A DNA stretch of 24,316 bases from Candidatus Abyssobacteria bacterium SURF_5 (GTDB lineage: Bacteria > Abyssobacteria > SURF-5), in the NCBI GenBank assembly GCA_003598085.1, contig QZKU01000078.1, positions 1 to 24,316 on the forward strand, in the 5' to 3' direction. Below the pieces are notes generated by a model, which was given only the letters and a program-made list of their open reading frames with translations, had not been told where the DNA came from and ran no database searches. This document shows positions 2,355 through 21,143 of the stretch, piece after piece (positions within the stretch are counted from its first letter, which is position 1; every line of letters starts with the position of its first letter). A program made the position numbers and the translations under genes.

Positions 2355-4025
2355 TTACGGTGATACCTCAAAATCAAAATGATCCTCATCCATCATAGGA
2401 TTTGCGCCGACGTAGGCATTATAGGTATAGTTGCCCACCGGGCTTCTGTTGGGAACCGCATGCGTCAGATGACGGGTATAGCCTGAAAAAGGTTCCAACA
2501 TCACAATCACCCCGTAAAACGCTCCAGTTGGAGGATATATAGTTCCATCGGGCAGCGTGACATTTGTCCAGTAAACGACGGCTTGCGGCTCTCCGGTGTT
2601 ATTGACAGCCGTTGCCGTATATCCAAGAGTGCCCATGGGCGGGATCACGACCGCATCGGGAACCAGATGCAGGCTCACGAGAAGGAATTCGTCGGCCCCC
2701 ATATCGAAACCAAACCCATGTGGGCGGTTATCTCCGTCGACATCGTCGTAGATTCCGGCGTCGGTGGCTGAGTCGATACAGGGTGATCCCCACGACAGAT
2801 GAAAATCATCGGGCCCAATAAAAAGAGGCGCCGCATCGATGTTATTCTCTCCCCAGACAAGGGCGCCTCCGCCATCGACATACGCGGTCGCCTCTCCGCC
2901 CTCGACATCGCTGTAGTCGACGGAGGCCGCTGCGCCGTAGCGAACAGCCATTTCCGGTCCAAACGTTGCGTCGTCATTCCAAAAGATACTGTTGGTGATG
3001 GTGGACGGCGGAAGGCTGTAATCGGCGTAAAAATAAATTCCTCCACCCATCAAAGCCATATTTTCGCCGATGCTGCAGTGGGTAATAATTGGGGAGGAAT
3101 TGCGGCAACAGATGCCGCCGCCGTAGCTATTGACCACATTATCTTTGATGATGCAGTTGGTTACCGAAGCGGAGGAATCGATGATATACATACCGCCGCC
3201 GCAATTAACGGCCCAATTTTCGCTGATGTCGCACCCGGTCATCTCCAATGACGCAGAAGAGCTGCAGAGACCCCCGCCCTCGTACACCGCCGCGTTGCGG
3301 CTGAGGACGCATTTTGAAAGCGTCAGCAGGGAATTTGAGCTATAGATACCGCCGCCTGCAGTCGTCGAAGTGTTACCCGTGATATGAGAGTCTTCAATTA
3401 TCGATAAAGGGGAAGCGTCGCAAAAAATCCCTCCGCCGTAGTTCGAGCTGTTCTCGACAATCTCGCAGCCGCTTATGGTCGGTGAAGAGTTGGATAGAAA
3501 TACCGCGCCGCCGTAAAGAAGAGATGCATTCTCGCTCAAAGTGCAGCCGATAATGACGGGCGATGATAAAGAGCCGCAGTGAATTCCGGCGCCCTCAACA
3601 GCCATGCATCCGGTAATCGTACAATTGCTGATGGTGGGCGAGGAAGAGTTGTAGCATATTATTCCCGCTCCCACGCTCTCGTTGCCGTGCATGATCGTGA
3701 AGCCGCTGATTACCGAATCAGCCGTTTCGCCGGAGTTCAAGACAAACGCCCTGCCCTCGTACTGGCAGTCAATGATGCATCCCGTTGGGCCGTTTTCCGA
3801 CCGCAAGATTATCGCCTTCCCTTTGAACGAGAGGTTTTTGTTGCCGTCCCCCGTATAAACGCCATCTCGGACGACTATTTCGTCGCCGGCCGTGGCGATA
3901 TCGAGGGCTGCCTGAATGGTCGAGAAGTCATCAGGCACGTAATACATATCGGCTTGAGCTGGTCCCGGTTCAGATACAACGAGCATTAGAACAGCTACCA
4001 TCAGAATCACTTTCCAACTTGACAT
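2355..4025 (-). CDS. Exported right-handed parallel beta-helix repeat protein
   Basis: 556 residues. The ATG at 4025 is preceded by AGGAGGC (4031-4037) at good spacing, which favours it over the ATG at 4055. A signal peptide is visible (MSSWKVILMVAVLMLVVS, likely cleavage after AQA at residue 25). Residues about 28-100 look like the N-terminal cap of DUF1565/beta-helix proteins (STIQAALDIATAGDEIVV). About ten imperfect repeats of roughly 24 residues follow (pattern SSPTISNC...ENSA...GGGIYC), the usual coil period of parallel beta-helix folds. The last 110 residues (from about LVSLHLVPDAV) look like a separate beta-sandwich. No sortase, autotransporter or membrane anchor is seen, so the protein should be periplasmic or secreted. 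Many relatives bind or cleave polysaccharides, but no catalytic residues can be assigned, and function is unknown. Confidence 0.88.
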   Translation of the reverse strand: MSSWKVILMVAVLMLVVSEPGPAQADMYYVPDDFSTIQAALDIATAGDEIVVRDGVYTGDGNKNLSFKGKAIILRSENGPTGCIIDCQYEGRAFVLNSGETADSVISGFTIMHGNESVGAGIICYNSSSPTISNCTITGCMAVEGAGIHCGSLSSPVIIGCTLSENASLLYGGAVFLSNSSPTISGCEIVENSSNYGGGIFCDASPLSIIEDSHITGNTSTTAGGGIYSSNSLLTLSKCVLSRNAAVYEGGGLCSSSASLEMTGCDISENWAVNCGGGMYIIDSSASVTNCIIKDNVVNSYGGGICCRNSSPIITHCSIGENMALMGGGIYFYADYSLPPSTITNSIFWNDDATFGPEMAVRYGAAASVDYSDVEGGEATAYVDGGGALVWGENNIDAAPLFIGPDDFHLSWGSPCIDSATDAGIYDDVDGDNRPHGFGFDMGADEFLLVSLHLVPDAVVIPPMGTLGYTATAVNNTGEPQAVVYWTNVTLPDGTIYPPTGAFYGVIVMLEPFSGYTRHLTHAVPNRSPVGNYTYNAYVGANPMMDEDHFDFEVSP

Positions 4026-4070
4026 ATTCCGCCTCCTACTCTGTTCGTTCCACATTCAGCCGATGACGAG

Positions 4071-4163: not shown

Positions 4164-4193
4164 ATTATATTATGGTCTTTTTCCGGATGTCAA
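4164..4193 (-). promoter_or_regulatory. Sigma70-type promoter for the beta-helix gene
   Basis: Read on the minus strand, TTGACA (4193-4188) and TATAAT (4169-4164) are both exact consensus hexamers, separated by 18 bp. Transcription should start near 4157, giving a leader of about 130 nt before the ATG at 4025. That leader contains the GGGGACA repeats. Confidence 0.7.
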
Positions 4194-4500: not shown

Positions 4501-7452
4501 ATGCGTTCGCCTGCAATGGACGCGAGTGCGCTGGAATTGCGGACAAAGGCGATAGGGTACCGCCTGTTTTCAGACGTTGAGGAGAAGGCGCCTTCCATTT
4601 TTCAATCGCAATGGTGGGAAAACCAGTTGCTCGAATGGGCGATGAAAAACAGCGCGATGAAGACGCAGATGTTGCGTTTTGTCGACATTTTTCCCGCGTT
4701 GCACACACCGCGCCAGATCGTGAGCCATCTCCGGCAATATTTCCCGAGCTCGAACCGCGAGTTCCCCGCGTTCCTGCGCATCGGGCTCGAGGCCGCCAGC
4801 CCGACGGCGGTCTCTCGGTCTCTTCTGGCGAGAGAAACCGCCGCTATGATGACGCGGATGGCGCGCAAGTTCATCGCCGGCGCCGACATCGAGGAAGCGC
4901 TCGGCGTCCTGCGAAACATACGCGCCGAGGGCATGACGTATACGCTCGATCTGCTCGGCGAGGCGGTTGTGAGCGAGGTCGAAGCCGATCGTTACATGGA
5001 CGACTATATAAGAGTTTTGGGGATTCTCGGGGCTCATGCCGACCTTGCGACGCACAATATCTCGATCAAACTCTCGTCACTCTATTCTCAGTTCGATCCG
5101 CTCAACGAGTCCGGCAGCAAACGCATAGTAAAACAGCGCCTGCGCCAAATCTTCAGGGCCGCAAGACAAATTGGCGCCTTTGTGAACATCGATATGGAGC
5201 AATACGCCTTCGGCGGGCTGACGCTTCGCATCGCAAAGGAATTCCTTGAAGAGGAAGAGTTTCGCGATTTTCCGGATGCAGGCGTGGTAATACAGGCGTA
5301 TCTGCGCGAGTCGGAGGCGATGCTGGAAGACGTAATCAGATGGGTGCGGCGGCGAGGGACGCCGATAACCGTTCGCCTGGTGAAGGGGGCTTACTGGGAT
5401 TTCGAACTAATTCACGCCCGCCTGATGGATTGGCCTGCGCCGGTTTTCAAGAAGAAGAACGAGACCGACGCCAACTTCGAGCGCTTGACGGGAATCCTGC
5501 TGCGGAATTATCCCGCGATCAAGACAGCGATAGGAAGCCATAACATCCGCAGTATTGCGCATGCAATGGCGTGCGCGGAATCACTGGGGATCGAGCCGTC
5601 CGGCCTGGAGTTCCAGATGCTGTTCGGGATGGGCGATTCGATCAAGCGCGCGATCCTCAAGTCGGCTTATCCGCTCAGGGTGTACACGCCGATCGGCGAA
5701 TTATTGCCGGGCATGGCTTACCTGGTGAGGCGGCTGCTCGAAAACACATCGAATGAGTCGTTCCTGCGCCAGGATTATTTTATGGGGGTTCCGCCGGAGG
5801 AGTTGCTGAAGAATCCTCAGGATTCAGAGCCGGCGGCCGTGCTTTCTCGAACGCCGCCCAAGCGTTCCGTCGATGAATTTGAAAATGAGCCTCTCACCGA
5901 TTTCTCGCGAGTGGAGTCCGTTGACAAGATGAGGAAGGCGCTCGATGCAGTTGCGGCCGAATTGGGCAGGACATATCCGATGGTAATCGGGAAAGAGAAG
6001 CTCGAGGGGAAGGAGATCGCCGTGTCGATCAACCCCTCGCGTACCGATCAAGTTGTGGGGAGGATCGCGCAGGCTTCGATTGCGGACGCCGACCATGCGC
6101 TCCAGACAGCGCAGATCGCATTCGAGGCATGGCAGGCTGTGTCGCCTGAGAACCGCGCAAAATATCTGTTTCGGGCCGCGGAAATCATGGCGGCTCGGCG
6201 AGTTGAGCTTGCGGCCCTCAAGGTGTACGAGGTCGGCAAAGGCTGGAGGGAGGCCGACGCGGACGTAGCCGAGGCGATCGATTACCTCAGGTACTACGGC
6301 CGCCAGATGATTCGGTTGAACGCGCAAACGCTCACGGCCCGCCTGCCGGGCGAAACCAATGAGTATATCTACCGCGGGCGCGGGGTTGGATTGATAATCG
6401 CTCCCTGGAATTTCCCGCTCGCGATCCTTACCGGCATGTCGTCGGCCGCAGTTGTCGCGGGAAACGCGGTGATCCTGAAACCGGCGGAGCAGTCGCCGAT
6501 TATCGCGGCCCACCTGATGCAGATATATGAAGAAGCGGGTATTCCGGCCGGCGTAGTCAACCTGCTGCCGGGGCCGGGTCAGCCGCTGGGCGAGTATCTG
6601 GTGAAAAGCCCCGACGTCTCCTTTATTGCGTTCACTGGCTCACAGGAGGTCGGCCTTCGGATCGACCGGCTCGCGGCGGAGCATCCGGCGCGAAACGCCG
6701 TAAAGCGGGTGATCGCCGAAATGGGCGGCAAGAATGCGGTGATAATAGACGAAAGCGCCGATCTGGATGACGCGGTTCTGGGCGTGACCGCTTCGGCTTT
6801 CAGTTATCAGGGGCAGAAGTGTTCGGCGGCTTCGCGGGTCATCGTGCTCGATAGTGTATATGATACATTTCTGCCGCGCCTGATCGAGGCGGCACGGAGC
6901 CTGAAGGTGGGCCCGGCGGAGGACCCGGGCGCGCAGGTCGGCCCTGTCATCGACAACGACGCTTTGCAGAAGATACTGGGATACATCAAGCTTGGGAAGG
7001 AGCAAGCCAGGCTCGTGCTTGAAACCGACGTGTCCCACCTGAGAGATGGTTTTTATGTCGGTCCGACTATTTTTGCGGATGTTGCGCCCGAGAGCCCTCT
7101 GGCGCAGGAGGAGATATTCGGACCGGTTCTGGCGGTCATTCGAGCCCGAGATTTTGAAGATGCGCTTCATATTGCGAATGCCACGAGATTCGGTCTGACG
7201 GGCGGCCTGTACTCGAGGACGCCGAAGCACGTGGAGCTTGCGCGCCGCCGTTTTCTGGTCGGCAATCTGTACATCAATCGCAAGATAACGGGTGCGATCG
7301 TCCGGCGGCAGCCGTTTGGGGGGTTCAAGATGTCGGGCGTCGGCTCGAAGGCGGGCGGGCCGGATTATTTGATCCAGTTCATGCTCCCCCAGACGATTAG
7401 CGAGAACGTGATGCGGCGCGGGTTTGCGCCGCTGGAGGAATACGATGTATAG
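4501..7452 (+). CDS. putA: Bifunctional proline dehydrogenase / L-glutamate gamma-semialdehyde dehydrogenase (PutA)
   Basis: 983 residues. Oxidises proline to P5C with FAD, passing electrons to quinone, then oxidises glutamate semialdehyde to glutamate with NAD+. A TGA lies immediately in frame before the ATG at 4501, and AGGAG (4485-4489) precedes it, so the start is well fixed. The proline dehydrogenase barrel covers about residues 120-440, with VRLVKGAYWD (291-300) and Y407/R410/R411 in AYLVRRLLEN, the tyrosine and arginine pair that bind the proline carboxylate in E. coli PutA. The aldehyde dehydrogenase half covers about 500-970: PWNFP (635-639), FTGSQEVG, Glu740 in EMGGK and catalytic Cys774 in GQKCS, spaced 34 apart as usual. 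It lacks the N-terminal DNA-binding domain of enteric PutA and any long C-terminal extension. It overlaps the next gene by 8 bp, so translation is probably coupled. Confidence 0.97.
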   Translation: MRSPAMDASALELRTKAIGYRLFSDVEEKAPSIFQSQWWENQLLEWAMKNSAMKTQMLRFVDIFPALHTPRQIVSHLRQYFPSSNREFPAFLRIGLEAASPTAVSRSLLARETAAMMTRMARKFIAGADIEEALGVLRNIRAEGMTYTLDLLGEAVVSEVEADRYMDDYIRVLGILGAHADLATHNISIKLSSLYSQFDPLNESGSKRIVKQRLRQIFRAARQIGAFVNIDMEQYAFGGLTLRIAKEFLEEEEFRDFPDAGVVIQAYLRESEAMLEDVIRWVRRRGTPITVRLVKGAYWDFELIHARLMDWPAPVFKKKNETDANFERLTGILLRNYPAIKTAIGSHNIRSIAHAMACAESLGIEPSGLEFQMLFGMGDSIKRAILKSAYPLRVYTPIGELLPGMAYLVRRLLENTSNESFLRQDYFMGVPPEELLKNPQDSEPAAVLSRTPPKRSVDEFENEPLTDFSRVESVDKMRKALDAVAAELGRTYPMVIGKEKLEGKEIAVSINPSRTDQVVGRIAQASIADADHALQTAQIAFEAWQAVSPENRAKYLFRAAEIMAARRVELAALKVYEVGKGWREADADVAEAIDYLRYYGRQMIRLNAQTLTARLPGETNEYIYRGRGVGLIIAPWNFPLAILTGMSSAAVVAGNAVILKPAEQSPIIAAHLMQIYEEAGIPAGVVNLLPGPGQPLGEYLVKSPDVSFIAFTGSQEVGLRIDRLAAEHPARNAVKRVIAEMGGKNAVIIDESADLDDAVLGVTASAFSYQGQKCSAASRVIVLDSVYDTFLPRLIEAARSLKVGPAEDPGAQVGPVIDNDALQKILGYIKLGKEQARLVLETDVSHLRDGFYVGPTIFADVAPESPLAQEEIFGPVLAVIRARDFEDALHIANATRFGLTGGLYSRTPKHVELARRRFLVGNLYINRKITGAIVRRQPFGGFKMSGVGSKAGGPDYLIQFMLPQTISENVMRRGFAPLEEYDV

Positions 7453-8659
7453 CGAGACGGTTGAGATACGGGGGCATTTTATCGATTCGTTGCTGCTGCC
7501 GAAGATACTCGACGACATCCTGCAAAACGGGGCGGAATTCGTTGTCGAAGAGCTGAGAGTCGGGAAGCGGCGAGCGGATCCCAGTTATGCCCGCGTCAGG
7601 TTGACCTCGAAAGATGCCGCGGCACTCGACAAACTGCTGAAGAGGATCAGGCAGCACGGAGCGACACTGGTGCATGAGCAGGATTGCGAGTTGGCGAAGG
7701 CGGAACAGGATGGCGTTTTCCCCGACGGTTTTTATTCGACCACGAACCAGCAGACATTTGTCCGGCTGAACGGAAAGTGGATGGCGGTGGAGAGGCCGGA
7801 GATGGATTGCGGGATCAGGGTTTTGCCCGATAAGGCGGGGGCCGCGTGTGTTCCTTTTACGGATCTGCGCGCGGGCGACCTGTTTGTGGTCGGCCATCAC
7901 GGGGTGAAGATTGAGCCGCTCGAGCGGCCTTCGAAGGAGGATGTATTCAGTTTCATGTCGAGCGTGGTCTCGACGGAAAAACCGAAGGGCACTGTCGCGC
8001 GTGATATTGCAAGGAGTTTCCGCGACATGCGTTACCGCGGGCGCAAGATACTGGCGGTGGCCGGCCCCGCGGTTGTTCATACCGGCGCGGCGCCGCAGTT
8101 CGTGAAGCTGATCGAATCAGGCTATATCAACTTGTTGTTTGCCGGCAATGCGCTCGCCGCTCACGACATCGAATATGCTCTGTTCGGGACTTCGCTGGGC
8201 GTATATCTGGACCGCGGCATCCCGGCAGAGCACGGTCACGAGAACCACATGCGCGCGATCAACACGATCAGGAAATGCGGCGGCATCCGCCAGGCGGTCG
8301 AGCAGGGCGTGCTTAAAAAAGGAATTATGCACGCCTGCGTCAGGCACGGCGTTCCTTTCCTGCTCGCCGGCTCGATTCGGGACGACGGACCGCTGCCTGA
8401 TGTGATTACTGACGTGATTGAGGCCCAGCAGCGAATGAGGAGCATGCTGAGCGAAGTCGGGATCGCGTTGATGGTTGCGACCACATTGCATTCCGTCGCC
8501 GTCGGCAACCTTTTGCCCGCCACTGTCAAGACGATCTGCGTCGATATCAACCCGGCCGTGGTTACCAAGCTGGCCGATCGCGGCTCGTTTCAGGCGCTCG
8601 GCATCGTAACCGATGTTGAGCCGTTTCTTCGCGAGCTGTGCCAGGAATTGAATGTGTAG
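7445..8659 (+). CDS. Ornithine cyclodeaminase, TIGR00300/AgrE C-terminal type (LOR/SDH conserved domain)
   Basis: 404 residues. The ATG at 7445 overlaps the putA stop and follows GGAGG (7434-7438). The protein matches the archaeal and cyanobacterial family containing the LOR/SDH bifunctional-enzyme conserved domain (residues about 1-110), followed by a nucleotide-binding region ending in CVDINPAVVTKLADRGS and VTDVEPFL. Members include archaeal ornithine cyclodeaminase and the C-terminal half of cyanobacterial ArgZ/AgrE. They convert ornithine to proline and ammonia and are unrelated to the mu-crystallin type. A position between a proline oxidase and an arginine-degrading enzyme fits this activity exactly. 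The function is inferred from family memory and context; older database names for this family are vague (TIGR00300 family protein). Confidence 0.88.
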   Translation: MYSETVEIRGHFIDSLLLPKILDDILQNGAEFVVEELRVGKRRADPSYARVRLTSKDAAALDKLLKRIRQHGATLVHEQDCELAKAEQDGVFPDGFYSTTNQQTFVRLNGKWMAVERPEMDCGIRVLPDKAGAACVPFTDLRAGDLFVVGHHGVKIEPLERPSKEDVFSFMSSVVSTEKPKGTVARDIARSFRDMRYRGRKILAVAGPAVVHTGAAPQFVKLIESGYINLLFAGNALAAHDIEYALFGTSLGVYLDRGIPAEHGHENHMRAINTIRKCGGIRQAVEQGVLKKGIMHACVRHGVPFLLAGSIRDDGPLPDVITDVIEAQQRMRSMLSEVGIALMVATTLHSVAVGNLLPATVKTICVDINPAVVTKLADRGSFQALGIVTDVEPFLRELCQELNV

Positions 8660-8718
8660 GACGGCGGGGAAGAAAACTGCTGCTTCCGCAAACGTGATTG
8701 AGGAGTGAAATTCTGTTT

Positions 8719-9582
8719 ATGAAGTTTTCCCTTTTCATGTGCTCGCCGGAGTACTACGGCATCGAGTATGAGATCAATCCGTGGATGAGTTTACAGCGAC
8801 AGGCGGACCGTGCTCTTGCGCGGCGCCAGTGGGAGGCGCTTTACGGGCTTCTAACGGGTGAAATTGGAGTGAAGGTGGAATTGATCGAGCCGGCGCCTGG
8901 TTTGCCGGACATGGTATTCACCGCAAACGCCGGAATCGCGCTGAACGGCGATTTTATTTCGAGCAATTTCCGCAACAAAGAGAGGCAGGACGAGAGCCGG
9001 CACTTCAAAGACTGGTTCAAGAAAAAGGGGTATCGCATTTTCGAGCTTCCGCCCCACCAGTTTTTTGAAGGGGAGGGGGATCTTCTTTTCGCAGGCGACA
9101 CTGACGCTTACGCGGGCTACCTGATTCGTTCCGACGTGTACTCGCATGCGGCTGTCGCGGAGATGCTCGATCGGCGGGTGGTCTCGCTGGAACTGGTGGA
9201 CGGCCGGTTCTACCATCTCGATACCTGTTTTTGCCCACTGAATGAAAAAAGCGTTGTTTATTATCCAACCGCATTCGACACATATGCCCGTCAGGTGATC
9301 GAGGCGAATTTCCCCGATCGGATCGAGTTGACGGAGGAAGAGGCACTTCAGTTCGTGGCGAATGCAATTGTCATAGGAGACCATTACATTCAGCCGCCGG
9401 GAGGAGCAAGATACTTGCGCCGGGCCCTCCAGGAGCGCGGGTTTGAGGTGCACGAGTTGGAGATGTCGGAGTTTATGAAAGCGGGCGGCGCGACCAAATG
9501 CCTGGTTCTAAAACTGGCGGAGACATCTGAGGGCGCCTCCGGCTCGGTGAGGGATTGGAGCCTTTTTCGGGAAAAAACTTGA
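8719..9582 (+). CDS. Arginine dihydrolase (ArgZ/AgrE N-terminal type, guanidine-modifying superfamily)
   Basis: 287 residues, expected to hydrolyse arginine to ornithine, CO2 and two ammonia. The ATG at 8719 matches the family start (FxMCSPEYY); AGGAG at 8701-8705 is rather distant, and an in-frame TTG at 8698 is a weaker alternative. The fold is the pentein of arginine deiminase and dimethylargininase. Visible motifs are EINPW (N20), PGLPDMVFTANAG (N70), FFEGEGD (E117), FYHLDTC (H166) and GGATKC (C261). As I recall, Synechocystis ArgZ uses Asn71, Glu118, His168 and Cys264, a near-exact match; deiminases carry Asp where N70 stands. Cyanobacterial versions are fused to ornithine cyclodeaminase, whereas here that partner is the preceding gene, 59 bp upstream. 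A dimethylargininase-like activity remains possible. Confidence 0.87.
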   Translation: MKFSLFMCSPEYYGIEYEINPWMSLQRQADRALARRQWEALYGLLTGEIGVKVELIEPAPGLPDMVFTANAGIALNGDFISSNFRNKERQDESRHFKDWFKKKGYRIFELPPHQFFEGEGDLLFAGDTDAYAGYLIRSDVYSHAAVAEMLDRRVVSLELVDGRFYHLDTCFCPLNEKSVVYYPTAFDTYARQVIEANFPDRIELTEEEALQFVANAIVIGDHYIQPPGGARYLRRALQERGFEVHELEMSEFMKAGGATKCLVLKLAETSEGASGSVRDWSLFREKT

Positions 9583-9607
9583 CAATGGGCCTGCTTCGTC
9601 ATATAAT
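9579..9607 (+). promoter_or_regulatory. Consensus sigma70 promoter for the cytochrome cluster
   Basis: TTGACA (9579-9584) and TATAAT (9602-9607) are both exact consensus with the ideal 17-bp spacer. The -35 box overlaps the stop codon of the arginine dihydrolase gene. Transcription should begin near 9614, about 285 nt before the first cytochrome start, which separates the cytochrome cluster from the arginine operon as its own unit. Confidence 0.85.
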
Positions 9608-14159: not shown

Positions 14160-14213
14160 ATGACATCAAGGGGGCCGATCAAATGGACAGATCTTTGTTG
14201 CGCAACAAATTAA
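14160..14213 (+). CDS. Possible 17-codon upstream reading frame overlapping the NapC-type gene
   Basis: ATG 14160 has a better ribosome site (GAGGAG, 14150-14155) than the NapC-type ATG at 14183. It reads 17 codons (MTSRGPIKWTDLCCATN) and stops at TAA 14211-14213 inside the next gene in another frame. It may be a leader for coupled translation or chance. No family is recognised. Confidence 0.25.
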   Translation: MTSRGPIKWTDLCCATN

Positions 14214-15670
14214 GTCTCATCGGCATAGGATTGGCAATCATCTCGTTTTTTCTTGCTGTCTATCTTCTCGCGCTCAGCATGTTCGCGAGGGACACGAATC
14301 CCTATACCGGCATCATCACCTTCTTTGTGCTTCCGATGCACATTATCTTTGGCGTCTTCCTGATAATTCTCGGGATGATTCTTGAACGGCGCAGAAGACG
14401 TCGGCAGGCGCCGGAGGAGATCCCGCTGTTTCCGGTCATCGATTTCAATTCACCGCGAACGAGGCGGTACCTTTTCTGGACGGTTGGTCTTTTTGTCGGC
14501 TTCCTCCTTTTCAGCGCGGTCGGCAGCTATGAGGCGTATCATTTCACCGATTCCACCACTTTCTGCGGGCGCATCTGCCATCAGGTGATGGAGCCGGAAT
14601 TCACCGCGTATCAGAATTCGCCGCACGCGCGTGTTGCGTGCGTCGATTGCCATATCGGGCCGGGCGCCGACTGGTTCGTTAAATCGAAGATGTCCGGAAT
14701 GTATCAGATATTCGCAACGACGTTCCATACCTATCCCCAGCCGATTCCCACTCCGATTGAAGACCTGCGTCCGGCACAGGAGACGTGCGAGCAATGCCAT
14801 TGGCCGAAGCAGTTCTACGGAGCGGTCCAGAAGGAAATTCATCATTTCATGGCGGACGAAGAGAACACGCCGTGGACAATCAATCTGCTGTTAAAGGTGG
14901 GCGGCGGCAACCCGACCTACGGCGAGGTAGGCGGCATCCACTGGCACATGGCGATCAGCAACAAGATCGAATATATTGCCACCGACGAGGCTCGCCAGGA
15001 GATCGCATGGATACGGCAGACGGATCCCGACGGGCGGGTCACGATTTATCAGTCCGAAGAAGCGCCGCTCGAGGGAAGTCCCGAGAGCTACGAAATCCGC
15101 ACTATGGACTGTATCGACTGCCATAATCGGCCGACTCATATCTTCCGTTCGCCGAGTGCGGCGATGAATATCGCACTGCAAACGGGCAAGATCGACCGCT
15201 CGCTTCCCAACATAAAGGAACGCGGCGTCGATGTGCTTGCGGCGAAGTACGAGACGAAAGAGGCGGCGCTTGCGGCCATCTCCCAAGAGATAGACGCCTA
15301 TTATCAGGAAAATTATCCTGATATCTATTATGCCAAGCCGACTGAAATCACGAAAGCCATCGATGCAATAAAGACCATTTATGGCGACAACTTCTTTCCA
15401 TACATGAATGCCAGGTGGGACGTGTATCCCGAGAATGTCGGACATTTCATCTGGAAGGGGTGCTTCCGCTGTCACGACGGCAAACATGTGAGCGAGGAGG
15501 GAACAGCGATTAACAACGACTGCGACTCCTGCCATGTCATCATCAGCCAGGGGACCGGAGAGCAGAAAGCGGTTTCCCTCGATGGGCTTGAATTCAAGCA
15601 CCCGGTTGACATCGGCGAGGCGTGGAAGGAGATGAACTGTAGCGAGTGCCATACCGGCGCTCTGCCGTAA
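14183..15670 (+). CDS. NapC/NirT-family multiheme cytochrome c with seven haem sites
   Basis: 495 residues, a membrane-anchored cytochrome likely to exchange electrons between quinones and periplasmic partners. Two membrane helices (about 11-34 and 43-67), a basic loop (ERRRRRR) and a third helix (96-115) precede the haem region. The first haem site is CGRICH (128-133), with three rather than two residues between the cysteines. Normal CXXCH sites follow at 153, 202, 310, 427, 447 and 486. The segment from SYEAYHF to CVDCHIGPGADWFVKSK is typical of large NapC/NirT-like proteins. A TGG/ATG alternative start is excluded by frame; GGGGG (14170-14174) precedes ATG 14183. It is 186 bp after the nine-haem gene and is followed by a strong terminator, so it ends the cytochrome region. 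Confidence 0.93.
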   Translation: MDRSLLRNKLSLIGIGLAIISFFLAVYLLALSMFARDTNPYTGIITFFVLPMHIIFGVFLIILGMILERRRRRRQAPEEIPLFPVIDFNSPRTRRYLFWTVGLFVGFLLFSAVGSYEAYHFTDSTTFCGRICHQVMEPEFTAYQNSPHARVACVDCHIGPGADWFVKSKMSGMYQIFATTFHTYPQPIPTPIEDLRPAQETCEQCHWPKQFYGAVQKEIHHFMADEENTPWTINLLLKVGGGNPTYGEVGGIHWHMAISNKIEYIATDEARQEIAWIRQTDPDGRVTIYQSEEAPLEGSPESYEIRTMDCIDCHNRPTHIFRSPSAAMNIALQTGKIDRSLPNIKERGVDVLAAKYETKEAALAAISQEIDAYYQENYPDIYYAKPTEITKAIDAIKTIYGDNFFPYMNARWDVYPENVGHFIWKGCFRCHDGKHVSEEGTAINNDCDSCHVIISQGTGEQKAVSLDGLEFKHPVDIGEAWKEMNCSECHTGALP

Positions 15671-17476: not shown

Positions 17477-18595
17477 ATGATGCAAGAGTTGCTCAACAAG
17501 GGTCCGGACGAACTGCAGGCGGAAGTGCAGCAGGCCGATCTGTGCACCACCTGCGGCATGTGCGCGGGCCTGTGCCCGTATATTAAGGAGATGGAGGAAC
17601 GCGTTGCGGTGATCGACCGCTGCGGCCGCAGCGACGGGCGCTGTTACAAGTTCTGTCCGCGAACGTTCACCGATCTCGATGCTCTCGATGAAAGCGTCTT
17701 CGGTGCGCCGCGATCGGACGCGGTGCTGGGATCGTACCGCTCGCTATCGATGGTGAAGGCGGGCGACGCTGCGGTTCACGAAGCCGGGCAGTACGGCGGC
17801 GCCGTATCCGCTCTTTTGATACACGCGCTGAAGAAGCACATGATCGATGCGGTATTGCTGACAAAATATTCCGAGCGCAAGCATGCGCTGCCGCAGCCGA
17901 TGATCGCGCGCAATCGGCGGCAGGTGCTCGCGTGCGCCGGCTCGAAATACACCGCCGCGCCGACGCTGAAAGCTTTGCGCGAGCTGCTCGAGAGCGGCGA
18001 AAAAGTCGCCGTGGTGGGGCGGCCGTGCCAGGTGACGGCGGTCCGCAAGATGCAATTGTACGACGAGAGTCCGGAAGTTAAGAACATATCGTTGGTGGTC
18101 GGGCTGTTCTGCCTGTGGGCGCTTGATTACAAGCGTTATTCGTACTATCTCGGGCAGCAGGTGGATTTGAAGAAAATCCGCAAGATCGACATCCCGAAGA
18201 ATGACGATTTCATCGTTTACACCGACAACGGCAACGTGCGCGTGCCAATCGAAAAGATCAAGAGCTTCATCCGCCCGACGTGCCAGCTTTGCATGGATGT
18301 CACGTCCGAACTCGCGGATATCTCGCTTGGCTCGACCGAATGGAAAGACGACTGGAACACGCTGCTTGTTCGCAGCGAGGCGGGCGAGCGGTTAGTGAAC
18401 TCTGCGGCGAGGGCGAAAGCGGTCGGGCTGCAGAAGTTCCCGGCGGAGCGCGAGGCGATTCTGCGCGAGGCGGTGGGCAACAAAAAGCGGCGGGTGCTGA
18501 AAGAGTTATCCCAACGCGGCAACGAGAATATGCCGCTGTTGTACCTGAAGATGAGCGTGGAACAGCGCAGTCTCCTGGAAGGAGGGTCGAAATAA
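17477..18595 (+). CDS. FrhB/FdhB-like iron-sulfur flavoprotein (coenzyme F420 hydrogenase/dehydrogenase beta-subunit family)
   Basis: 372 residues. The ATG at 17477 follows GGGGAGG. Family members are FAD and [4Fe-4S] proteins that move electrons between ferredoxin-like partners and F420 or other acceptors. The N-terminal cluster motif is C23-TT-C26-GM-C29-AGL-C33-P, followed by cysteines 49, 56 and 60 (CGRSDGRCYKFCP). The central domain carries GRPCQVTAVRKM, and the later motif RPTCQLCMDVTSELADISLGS is characteristic of FrhB. It overlaps iorA by one base (TAATG), so it is almost certainly co-translated with the oxidoreductase. The likely role is to take electrons from, or give them to, the IorAB ferredoxin domain. 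F420 use is not shown by the sequence, since the family also serves F420-free bacteria. Confidence 0.92.
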   Translation: MMQELLNKGPDELQAEVQQADLCTTCGMCAGLCPYIKEMEERVAVIDRCGRSDGRCYKFCPRTFTDLDALDESVFGAPRSDAVLGSYRSLSMVKAGDAAVHEAGQYGGAVSALLIHALKKHMIDAVLLTKYSERKHALPQPMIARNRRQVLACAGSKYTAAPTLKALRELLESGEKVAVVGRPCQVTAVRKMQLYDESPEVKNISLVVGLFCLWALDYKRYSYYLGQQVDLKKIRKIDIPKNDDFIVYTDNGNVRVPIEKIKSFIRPTCQLCMDVTSELADISLGSTEWKDDWNTLLVRSEAGERLVNSAARAKAVGLQKFPAEREAILREAVGNKKRRVLKELSQRGNENMPLLYLKMSVEQRSLLEGGSK

Positions 18596-20535
18596 TGTTG
18601 GACATATTACTCGATGAGCCGGGCAGAAAGGTTCTGCTGATGGGAAATGAGGCGATTGCCCGCGGAGCCATCGAGGCGGGCGTCAAATTTTGCGCCGCGT
18701 ATCCCGGCTCGCCTTCCTCGGAGATAATCGGGACTCTTTCGCGCCCTGAAGTGGCGGAGACTTTCGGGCTGCACGCCGAATGGTCGACCAATGAGATTGT
18801 GGCGCTCGAGGCGGCCGCCGGAGCGTCGTTCGGCGGTTTACGCGCCATCTGCGCGATGAAACAGAACGGCATCAATGTGGCCTCGGACTTCCTCATGTCG
18901 GTCATCATGTCGGGCTGCAAGGCGGGCATGGTTTTGGTGGTTGGCGACGATCCGGCCGGGCATTGCAGCAACAACGAGATGGACTCGCGCTCGTTTGCGC
19001 GGATGCTGGATGCGCCGCTGCTCGAGCCGGGCAGCATCCATGAGGCGAAGGAAATGACGCGGTGGGCGTACACGCTCTCGGAGGAACTCGAGATGCCGGT
19101 GATCGTTCGCAGCGTCACGCGGATTTCACACGCGCGCGGCGACCTGACGCTCGGCGAGATCAGCAAGATGCAGGTCGCTCCGCGCTTCGAGCCGTACGAC
19201 CGGTTCCTCTCGCTCGGGACGCTGACGCATTCGGTGCTGCACGGGCGTCTCGAGAAGGCGCGCGAGCTTTACGAGAAGTCCGAATTCAACAAATACGTCG
19301 GCCCGCCTGGAGCCGAGATGGTAATTATGACGTGTGGCACGGGCTGGCTTTACTCGCTCGAGGCGGTGCGAACGCTGGGGCTGGAAAATGAGGTAGGCAT
19401 CCTGAAGCTGGGGACGACGTGGCCGCTTCCGAACAATTTCATATTGGAGAACCTGAAGGGGGTCAAGCGCGTGTTGTTCGTCGAGGAGATCGATCCATTC
19501 CTCGAAATGAACGTGAAGAGCCTGTTGGCCGATCACATCGGGACGGATCTCGAGATCATCAAGTTCTTCGGGAAAGGCTCGGGGCACGTGCGCAGCCGGT
19601 TCGGGCCCGCCCTCGGCGAGATCGACCCGGATATCGTCGTGCGCGCGCTTGCGGAGGTGAAGGGCGTAGAATATCAGGCCCGCACCTCCGACTACGCCGA
19701 GCAGGCGAAGCAGTTCTTGAGCGACTATACGGCCGACCGCGACCTTGCTTTCTGCGCCGGTTGTCCACATCGGGCCTCGTACTGGGTGATGAAGAATGCG
19801 CTCGCGCTCGATGGGCGCGGCGGGTTTGTGCTGGGCGATATCGGATGTTACGGAATGGGAGCGGGCCGTTCGGGCTACTTCATAAATCGGACGCTTCATT
19901 GCATGGGTTCGGGCGCGGGCGTCGCCTGCGGTCTCGGCAATCTTGGCAAGTTCGATTTTAATCAGCCCGTGGTGGCGGTGATGGGCGATTCCACCTTCTT
20001 TCACGCCACGATTCCGGCGCTGGTGAATGCACGTTACAACGGCGCCAAGTTCACCAGCGTCATTCTCGATAACTCAGCGACTGCGATGACCGGTTTCCAG
20101 CCGCATCCGGGCATCGGCGTCAATGCGCTTGGCAATCCTGCGACGCAGGTGAGCATTGAGGAGGTCTGCAAGGGGCTTGGGTTCCACGTCGAGATCCGGG
20201 ACCCGTTCGTCGTTGACGAAGCAGTCGAGGCATTATACGATCTGATGCAGCGCGATGATGCCAGCATCCTGATTTTGAGGCGCACATGCGGGCTTGTGGC
20301 CAGCCGGCAGAAAAAGAAAGACAAAGTGCGTGTGAATCCCGACAAATGCAAGGGGGACGCCTGCGGCTGCGCTCGTTTCTGCACGCGCACGTTTGGATGC
20401 CCGGCGCTCATCTGGGATCAGAAGAATCAGCGGGCGACGGTGGACGAGGTCGTGTGCACGGGCTGCGGCGTATGCGCCTATCTCTGCCCGCAGCACGCCA
20501 TCGAGGTGCAGAAGGCCGAGGAGTTGGTATCATGA
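18595..20535 (+). CDS. iorA: Indolepyruvate ferredoxin oxidoreductase, alpha subunit
   Basis: 646 residues. With IorB it oxidatively decarboxylates indolepyruvate and other aryl-pyruvates to aryl-acetyl-CoA, reducing ferredoxin; this is the step after transamination of aromatic amino acids. The ATG at 18595 overlaps the previous stop and follows GGAGGG. The pyrimidine-binding half comes first (AAYPGSPSSEI, residues about 33-43). The thiamine diphosphate region contains GDIGCYGMG (414-422) and GDSTFF (464-469) with DNSATAMTG. The C-terminus is a two-cluster ferredoxin domain: cysteines 585, 590, 592, 596 and 602, and C621-TG-C624-GV-C627-AYL-C631-P. The first cluster box is expanded compared with the usual CxGCxxC form. 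It overlaps iorB by four bases (ATGA). Confidence 0.97.
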   Translation: MLDILLDEPGRKVLLMGNEAIARGAIEAGVKFCAAYPGSPSSEIIGTLSRPEVAETFGLHAEWSTNEIVALEAAAGASFGGLRAICAMKQNGINVASDFLMSVIMSGCKAGMVLVVGDDPAGHCSNNEMDSRSFARMLDAPLLEPGSIHEAKEMTRWAYTLSEELEMPVIVRSVTRISHARGDLTLGEISKMQVAPRFEPYDRFLSLGTLTHSVLHGRLEKARELYEKSEFNKYVGPPGAEMVIMTCGTGWLYSLEAVRTLGLENEVGILKLGTTWPLPNNFILENLKGVKRVLFVEEIDPFLEMNVKSLLADHIGTDLEIIKFFGKGSGHVRSRFGPALGEIDPDIVVRALAEVKGVEYQARTSDYAEQAKQFLSDYTADRDLAFCAGCPHRASYWVMKNALALDGRGGFVLGDIGCYGMGAGRSGYFINRTLHCMGSGAGVACGLGNLGKFDFNQPVVAVMGDSTFFHATIPALVNARYNGAKFTSVILDNSATAMTGFQPHPGIGVNALGNPATQVSIEEVCKGLGFHVEIRDPFVVDEAVEALYDLMQRDDASILILRRTCGLVASRQKKKDKVRVNPDKCKGDACGCARFCTRTFGCPALIWDQKNQRATVDEVVCTGCGVCAYLCPQHAIEVQKAEELVS

Positions 20536-21143
20536 AAAACAACGACTGCTTGAACGTGATAATCACCGGCGTAGGCGGCCAGGGCAACATTCTGGCATCC
20601 CATATCCTTGCGAGCGCGGCGATCAATGACGGCTATCAGGTCGTTATCGGCGAGACGTACGGTCAATCGCAGCGCGGCGGCGCAGTCATGAGCCACGTGC
20701 GCATCTCAAAAGACGTCTCTGTGGGCCCGCTTATTCCGACGGGGAAAGCGGACGTCATAGTTGCGCTCGAGCCGATGGAGGCGCTTCGCGTGGCGGCATG
20801 GTATGCGAATCCGCAGACCAGATGCATCGTGAATCCGCGCCCGAATTATCCGCTGATGGTGTTATACGGTGCGCAGGAATATCCTGCGGTCGAGGAGTTG
20901 ATGAAGCGGTTGAAGGAGATAACGGCGGAAGTGAAGGTTGTGAAGGGGACGGAATTGGCGAAGGAGGCCGGCGAAGCGATGGCGTCGAACGTGGTGATGG
21001 TTGGCGCGCTCGCCGGTTCGGGCTGGCTGCCGATCCCGGTCGAAAAGTTCACCGGCGTGCTCAAGGATGTCATTCCCCGCAAAGTGCTTACGATCAACCA
21101 GAAGGCCTTCGAGCTGGGCATTGCCGGAATCAGACAAGCCTGA
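20532..21143 (+). CDS. iorB: Indolepyruvate ferredoxin oxidoreductase, beta subunit
   Basis: 203 residues, gamma-type domain of 2-oxoacid ferredoxin oxidoreductases that completes the CoA-binding side of the IorAB enzyme. The ATG at 20532 overlaps the iorA stop (ATGA), with GAGGAG about 8 bases upstream. Diagnostic features are the opening glycine-rich strand GVGGQGNILASHIL (residues 13-26), GETYGQSQRGGAV (41-53) and the VNPRPNYPL segment. Length and motifs are those of a normal, complete IorB. It is the last gene of the operon; a terminator-like hairpin follows 15 bp after its stop. Confidence 0.96.
   Translation: MKNNDCLNVIITGVGGQGNILASHILASAAINDGYQVVIGETYGQSQRGGAVMSHVRISKDVSVGPLIPTGKADVIVALEPMEALRVAAWYANPQTRCIVNPRPNYPLMVLYGAQEYPAVEELMKRLKEITAEVKVVKGTELAKEAGEAMASNVVMVGALAGSGWLPIPVEKFTGVLKDVIPRKVLTINQKAFELGIAGIRQA

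Follow-up and report, generated by a model that had tools for sequence, protein, structure and literature searches.

A predicted arginine-to-glutamate operon that pairs PutA with a separately encoded ornithine cyclodeaminase and ArgZ-type dihydrolase

In the cyanobacterial enzymes ArgZ (Sll1336, Synechocystis) and AgrE (Alr4995, Anabaena), an arginine dihydrolase (DH) and an ornithine cyclodeaminase (OCD) are joined in that order in a single chain, which acts in partnership with PutA to convert arginine, on balance, to glutamate. Asn71 of ArgZ is reportedly important for the second of the two hydrolyses. AstB, the succinylarginine dihydrolase, likewise hydrolyzes a guanidino group twice, as proposed here for DH; it acts on succinylarginine in another pathway and was absent from our sequence matches. 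Ornithine cyclodeaminases of the TIGR00300 family are known from archaea (Methanococcus maripaludis; 3c2q), and a standalone ArgZ-like hydrolase for arginine breakdown, Rv2323c ('DdaH'), is found in the roc cluster of Mycobacterium. In M. tuberculosis, which lacks a recognizable arginase, Rv2323c is induced by arginine and needed for growth on it, and its knock-out lowers the arginine-derived 13C-excess in proline from 49.8% to 6.4% (PMC4569260).

The window, that is, the whole stretch of 24,316 nucleotides of Candidatus Abyssobacteria bacterium SURF_5 that was analyzed, resembles ArgZ/AgrE in having counterparts of the two enzyme halves with their active-site Asn and Cys, in the partnership with PutA and, as predicted from the genes, in the net conversion of arginine to glutamate. 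It differs in that the two enzymes are encoded by two genes in the order OCD-DH, in that its OCD belongs to another tree lineage, and in that putA is part of the same operon. Like the mycobacterial cluster it has a standalone hydrolase; in the latter cluster, however, ornithine goes to an ornithine aminotransferase (broken in M. tuberculosis), whereas the window is predicted to send ornithine to OCD. The window OCD is a full-length member of the same family as the archaeal enzyme but has an arginine hydrolase and PutA as its partners.

The three genes lie head to tail exactly as an earlier, sequence-only reading of this DNA had described them, with the first two overlapping (by 8 bases, the OCD start codon lying inside the end of putA) and with OCD and DH together amounting to the 691 residues it had given (Table 1). 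The ribosome-binding motif of OCD is situated 6 bases 5′ of its start; the gap between OCD and DH is 59 bases, and a GAGGAG motif precedes the DH start by 13 bases. Pattern matching identified a perfect sigma-70 consensus on either side of the three genes. The TTGACA of the downstream site contains the stop codon of DH; this site is probably the promoter of the cytochrome unit that follows and would delimit the operon at its 3′ end. The upstream site is probably the promoter of the gene at 2355-4055 and would delimit the operon at its 5′ end. The two sites together suggest that the operon ends at DH and that the downstream cytochrome genes form a separate unit. A DDE transposase with a DUF4372 domain is located at the contig edge (93-1079, minus strand).

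Table 1. Features of the arginine locus and OCD-fragment genes found at other loci of the survey (L numbers); coordinates without a prefix are those of the window.
Feature	Position	Strand	Remarks
putA	4501-7452	+	ATG 4501, stop 7452; 983 aa
OCD (TIGR00300 ornithine cyclodeaminase)	7445-8659	+	ATG 7445, stop 8659; 404 aa
DH (ArgZ-type hydrolase, predicted)	8719-9582	+	ATG 8719, stop 9582; 287 aa
Ribosome-binding site of OCD	7434-7438	+	GGAGG within putA, read from sequence
Candidate promoter	9579-9607	+	TTGACA-17-TATAAT, 12/12 sigma-70 consensus; overlaps DH stop codon
Candidate promoter	4164-4193	-	12/12 sigma-70 consensus; points away from putA
OCD-fragment genes upstream of DH	L129:7744-7974; L134:3536-3763; L185:7452-7748; L117:7751-7987		LOR/SDH domain

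The putA product is a bifunctional proline dehydrogenase/glutamate-semialdehyde dehydrogenase by its sequence: a single chain contains the PutA_N (PF18083), Pro_dh (PF01619) and Aldedh (PF00171) domains, the score exceeds the TIGR01237 cut-off, and the closest structure is that of a bifunctional PutA (5ur2, E 1e-282). A NapC/NirT-type cytochrome c, which may take electrons from the quinol made by proline oxidation, is encoded directly after DH in the sister genera (L069:10488-12005 and L070:7194-8708) and 4.6 kb downstream of DH in the window (14183-15670). Further along (17477-21143) are an FrhB-like protein and then the alpha and beta subunits of an indolepyruvate ferredoxin oxidoreductase (both below the model cut-offs), probable amino-acid catabolism genes near the arginine operon.

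The second protein scores 531 bits against TIGR00300 (cut-off 410.8) over positions 2-404 of 407, and contains LOR/SDH and ArgZ-like_C domains. Its closest structures are the C-terminal halves of AgrE (6lrf) and ArgZ (6juy), with E values of about 1e-99, together with the archaeal OCD. NCBI names the family nickel-pincer nucleotide-dependent, and the protein is expected to be an ornithine cyclodeaminase that uses this cofactor. In the host genome, LarC and LarB are neighbors on contig 145, and contig 121 carries LarE. Among the 386 genomes of our sample, LarC is present in 27 of the 28 that carry TIGR00300, as compared with 165 of the other 358 (46%; Fisher p 4e-8, a value that ignores shared ancestry), and a LarB gene lies one to four genes downstream of DH in nine Nitrospirota loci (one representative annotated, the rest assigned by sequence cluster). 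OCD is thus linked to the nickel-pincer cofactor, whose genes the host possesses, and is predicted to bind it.

The hydrolase has the pentein, or guanidine-modifying, fold, a point settled by its identity of about 44% to ArgZ-type enzymes whose structures have been solved. Its best structural match is the N-terminal domain of ArgZ (6jv0, E 1e-70), with AgrE also close. Both proteins are, as had been claimed, homologous to the two halves of ArgZ/AgrE, and they are so over their full length. The best NCBIfam model is the arginine dihydrolase NF052232, for which DH scores 285 bits, below the cut-off of 450, as do its Nitrospira and Vampirovibrio relatives. OCD and DH are separate open reading frames, each with its own start and stop, and their scores of 285 and 415 bits fall short of the cut-off of the bifunctional ArgZ/AgrE model NF052231 (1025 bits). 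DH likewise falls below the cut-offs of the arginine deiminase model PF02274 (21.9 versus 22.8 bits) and of all three dimethylargininase (DDAH) models (267 of 300, 58 of 340 and 27 of 450 bits). The two pair-type members that were checked, DH and its Nitrospira defluvii relative, lie under every relevant NCBI model cut-off.

In its active site, DH retains Asn20, Asn70, His166 and Cys261, of which Asn70 and Cys261 align with the ArgZ positions altered in N71S (6juz) and C264S (6jv1), the changes being read off alignments to those structures. Among the 110 DHs of the survey described below, Asn70 is conserved in 108 and Cys261 in 109; a myxococcotal DH (L143:7992-8801) has Ser at the position of Asn70, the same change as in the laboratory mutant ArgZ N71S. 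In five dimethylargininase- or deiminase-like homologs, position 70 is Asp and the INPWM motif that carries Asn20 is missing. DH is predicted to be an ArgZ-type arginine dihydrolase with ornithine as its product. Two relatives (L089:8701-9483 and L090:8422-9204) that fall under NF045659, the 'dimethylargininase' model of Mycobacterium and Rv2323c, keep the ArgZ-type Asn, and the second, 37% identical to Rv2323c, adjoins an ornithine aminotransferase (TIGR01885, 459 bits, over the cut-off). The name of this model is probably wrong, and we infer that Rv2323c would itself be a dihydrolase.

A domain-wide sample of 386 genomes, in which the hydrolase occurs in 31 and TIGR00300 in 28, was combined with a scan of named genomes into a survey of 110 loci; because the scan contributed the best 80 of at least 573 DH relatives, the survey leans to proteins close to the window DH. 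A TIGR00300 sequence lies directly upstream of DH on the same strand in 60 of the 110 loci and downstream in none. Of these pairs, 55 hold at least 160 residues of TIGR00300, and in those 55 loci the median distance between the two genes is 33 bases. At least seven phyla are represented (Nitrospirota, Verrucomicrobiota, Planctomycetota, Omnitrophota, Chloroflexota, Myxococcota and Armatimonadota), which does not bear out the supposition that the pair is rare; we found no description of the paired form in the literature on TIGR00300, nickel-pincer OCD, or dihydrolase plus cyclodeaminase. The order putA-OCD-DH recurs in the family's two other genera (L069 and L070; 65-77% identity) and in an unrelated lineage (L078). 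This recurrence, together with an OCD-DH order that has no exception in 60 loci, argues that the arrangement is not due to chance. Genes for PutA are near the pair in eight survey loci: they share its orientation in L078 and in all three genera of the family, and are divergent in L113, L124, L130 and L132.

Some DHs stand without OCD, so the ornithine they are predicted to form need not always end as proline. Apart from the ornithine aminotransferase neighbor of L090, such DHs can adjoin argD-like aminotransferases together with an aldehyde dehydrogenase; like that neighbor, these enzymes use up ornithine or compounds related to it. Within the larger neighbor clusters of the survey loci, no citrulline-using partner was seen beside DH; that the partners take ornithine argues for ornithine as the DH product. 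In three Melainabacteria loci and one Verrucomicrobia locus, the gene directly upstream of DH is short and encodes just the N-terminal 75-150 residues of OCD, comprising the LOR/SDH domain without the catalytic part (Table 1), and this fragment may serve DH.

Could the pair be a cyanobacterial fusion gene that was broken and re-ordered, or else the direct ancestor of that fusion? Pair and fusion draw on the same two enzyme families and the five fused DHs form a single clade in the DH tree, yet this clade is set apart from the window's group. In an OCD tree with an archaeal root the fused enzymes join lone OCDs (support 98/93); opposite them stands a group (99/82) that takes in every paired OCD and a few lone OCDs. 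A tree forcing fused and paired OCDs together was rejected (AU p = 0.02), the root being one partial archaeal sequence taken from the alignment and the tested group having been named after the first tree. With that root and that choice of group, the trees place the two layouts on different OCD lineages and indicate that the paired one was likely assembled separately; the description of the locus as a fusion split and reversed is not supported, and descent in either direction is unlikely. Melainabacteria with a full split pair had been considered as the ancestor of the fusion and were dropped, since only the OCD fragments stand beside their DHs. Nor was a restriction of fused forms to photosynthetic cyanobacteria upheld, as two of the five genomes with a fusion lack PsaA/B (photosystem I). 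A standalone OCD (L101:8274-9506, genome G162) falls inside the fused clade in a genome without a DH match, which likely reflects loss of the dihydrolase half or transfer.

Two further alternatives concern the chemistry. If the hydrolase were a dimethylargininase or a citrulline-yielding arginine deiminase, its adjacency to OCD would be incidental. Its 267 bits against the M. tuberculosis dimethylargininase model, near the cut-off of 300, and its shortfall against the arginine dihydrolase model are compatible with such an assignment. Citrulline, however, is not expected to be a substrate of OCD, which nevertheless adjoins DH in 60 of the 60 oriented cases; position 70 is Asn rather than Asp; and the check for clustering with dimethylargininases separates DH from the classical enzyme (E 2.6e-5, versus 1e-70 for ArgZ), the M. 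tuberculosis protein, whose family is itself ArgZ-like, being the nearer one. We regard this possibility as very improbable. Alternatively, the operon could run to proline as an end product, an osmolyte or a biosynthetic one, rather than to glutamate: OCD would make proline in a single step, and putA is absent from the vicinity of many pairs. In all three genera of the window's family, however, putA overlaps or closely precedes OCD, and the host has a biosynthetic proC, so that a purely biosynthetic role for OCD is unnecessary. Proline as the end point is accordingly improbable for this locus.

The favored reading is that of an arginine-catabolic route. DH would hydrolyze the guanidino group of arginine twice to give ornithine, CO2 and two molecules of ammonia; OCD, with the nickel-pincer cofactor, would convert ornithine to proline with release of a third ammonia; and PutA would oxidize proline to P5C, with FAD relaying the electrons to quinone, before oxidizing P5C with NAD+ to glutamate. 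The gene set needed to carry arginine to glutamate, as had been proposed, is complete and homologous to ArgZ/AgrE plus PutA. The proposed bypass of arginine deiminase, arginase and ornithine aminotransferase also fits the host genome, in which none of the three was recognized: no arginine deiminase was found; no ornithine aminotransferase exceeded the cut-off, the best match being argD; and two ureohydrolases both score over the agmatinase cut-off, one of them being far under that for arginase at a lower threshold (94 versus 227.6) and the other having no arginase among its matches at the stricter threshold used. An ornithine carbamoyltransferase-like gene, read by eye, follows argD, so that some free ornithine might be turned back into arginine, a return also proposed for cyanobacteria (PMC8262935). 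From the identity of the genes, their conserved order, the active-site positions and the genomic cofactor pathway, with substrate, products, direction of flux and co-transcription predicted, we consider it likely, with good confidence, that the three genes constitute an operon for the conversion of arginine through ornithine and proline to glutamate, and that the paired layout, which many phyla share, probably arose as a separate assembly rather than from a broken-up fusion.

The arginine dihydrolase route has been described in cyanobacteria, and Nitrospira, planctomycetes, Verrucomicrobiota and Omnitrophota are among the groups that have the gene pair. We lean, somewhat beyond even chances, toward the view that a nickel-pincer OCD followed by a standalone dihydrolase makes up an arginine route that is widespread in bacteria and came together independently of the fusion, and that the mycobacterial 'dimethylargininase' belongs to the same dihydrolase family. 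Because the two pair-type members that were checked fall under the model cut-offs, arginine catabolism has probably been missed in many genomes. The pair would make arginine breakdown depend on a nickel cofactor. As a natural system of two proteins, it is also one against which the benefit of fusing them, ornithine channeling or release, could be tested.
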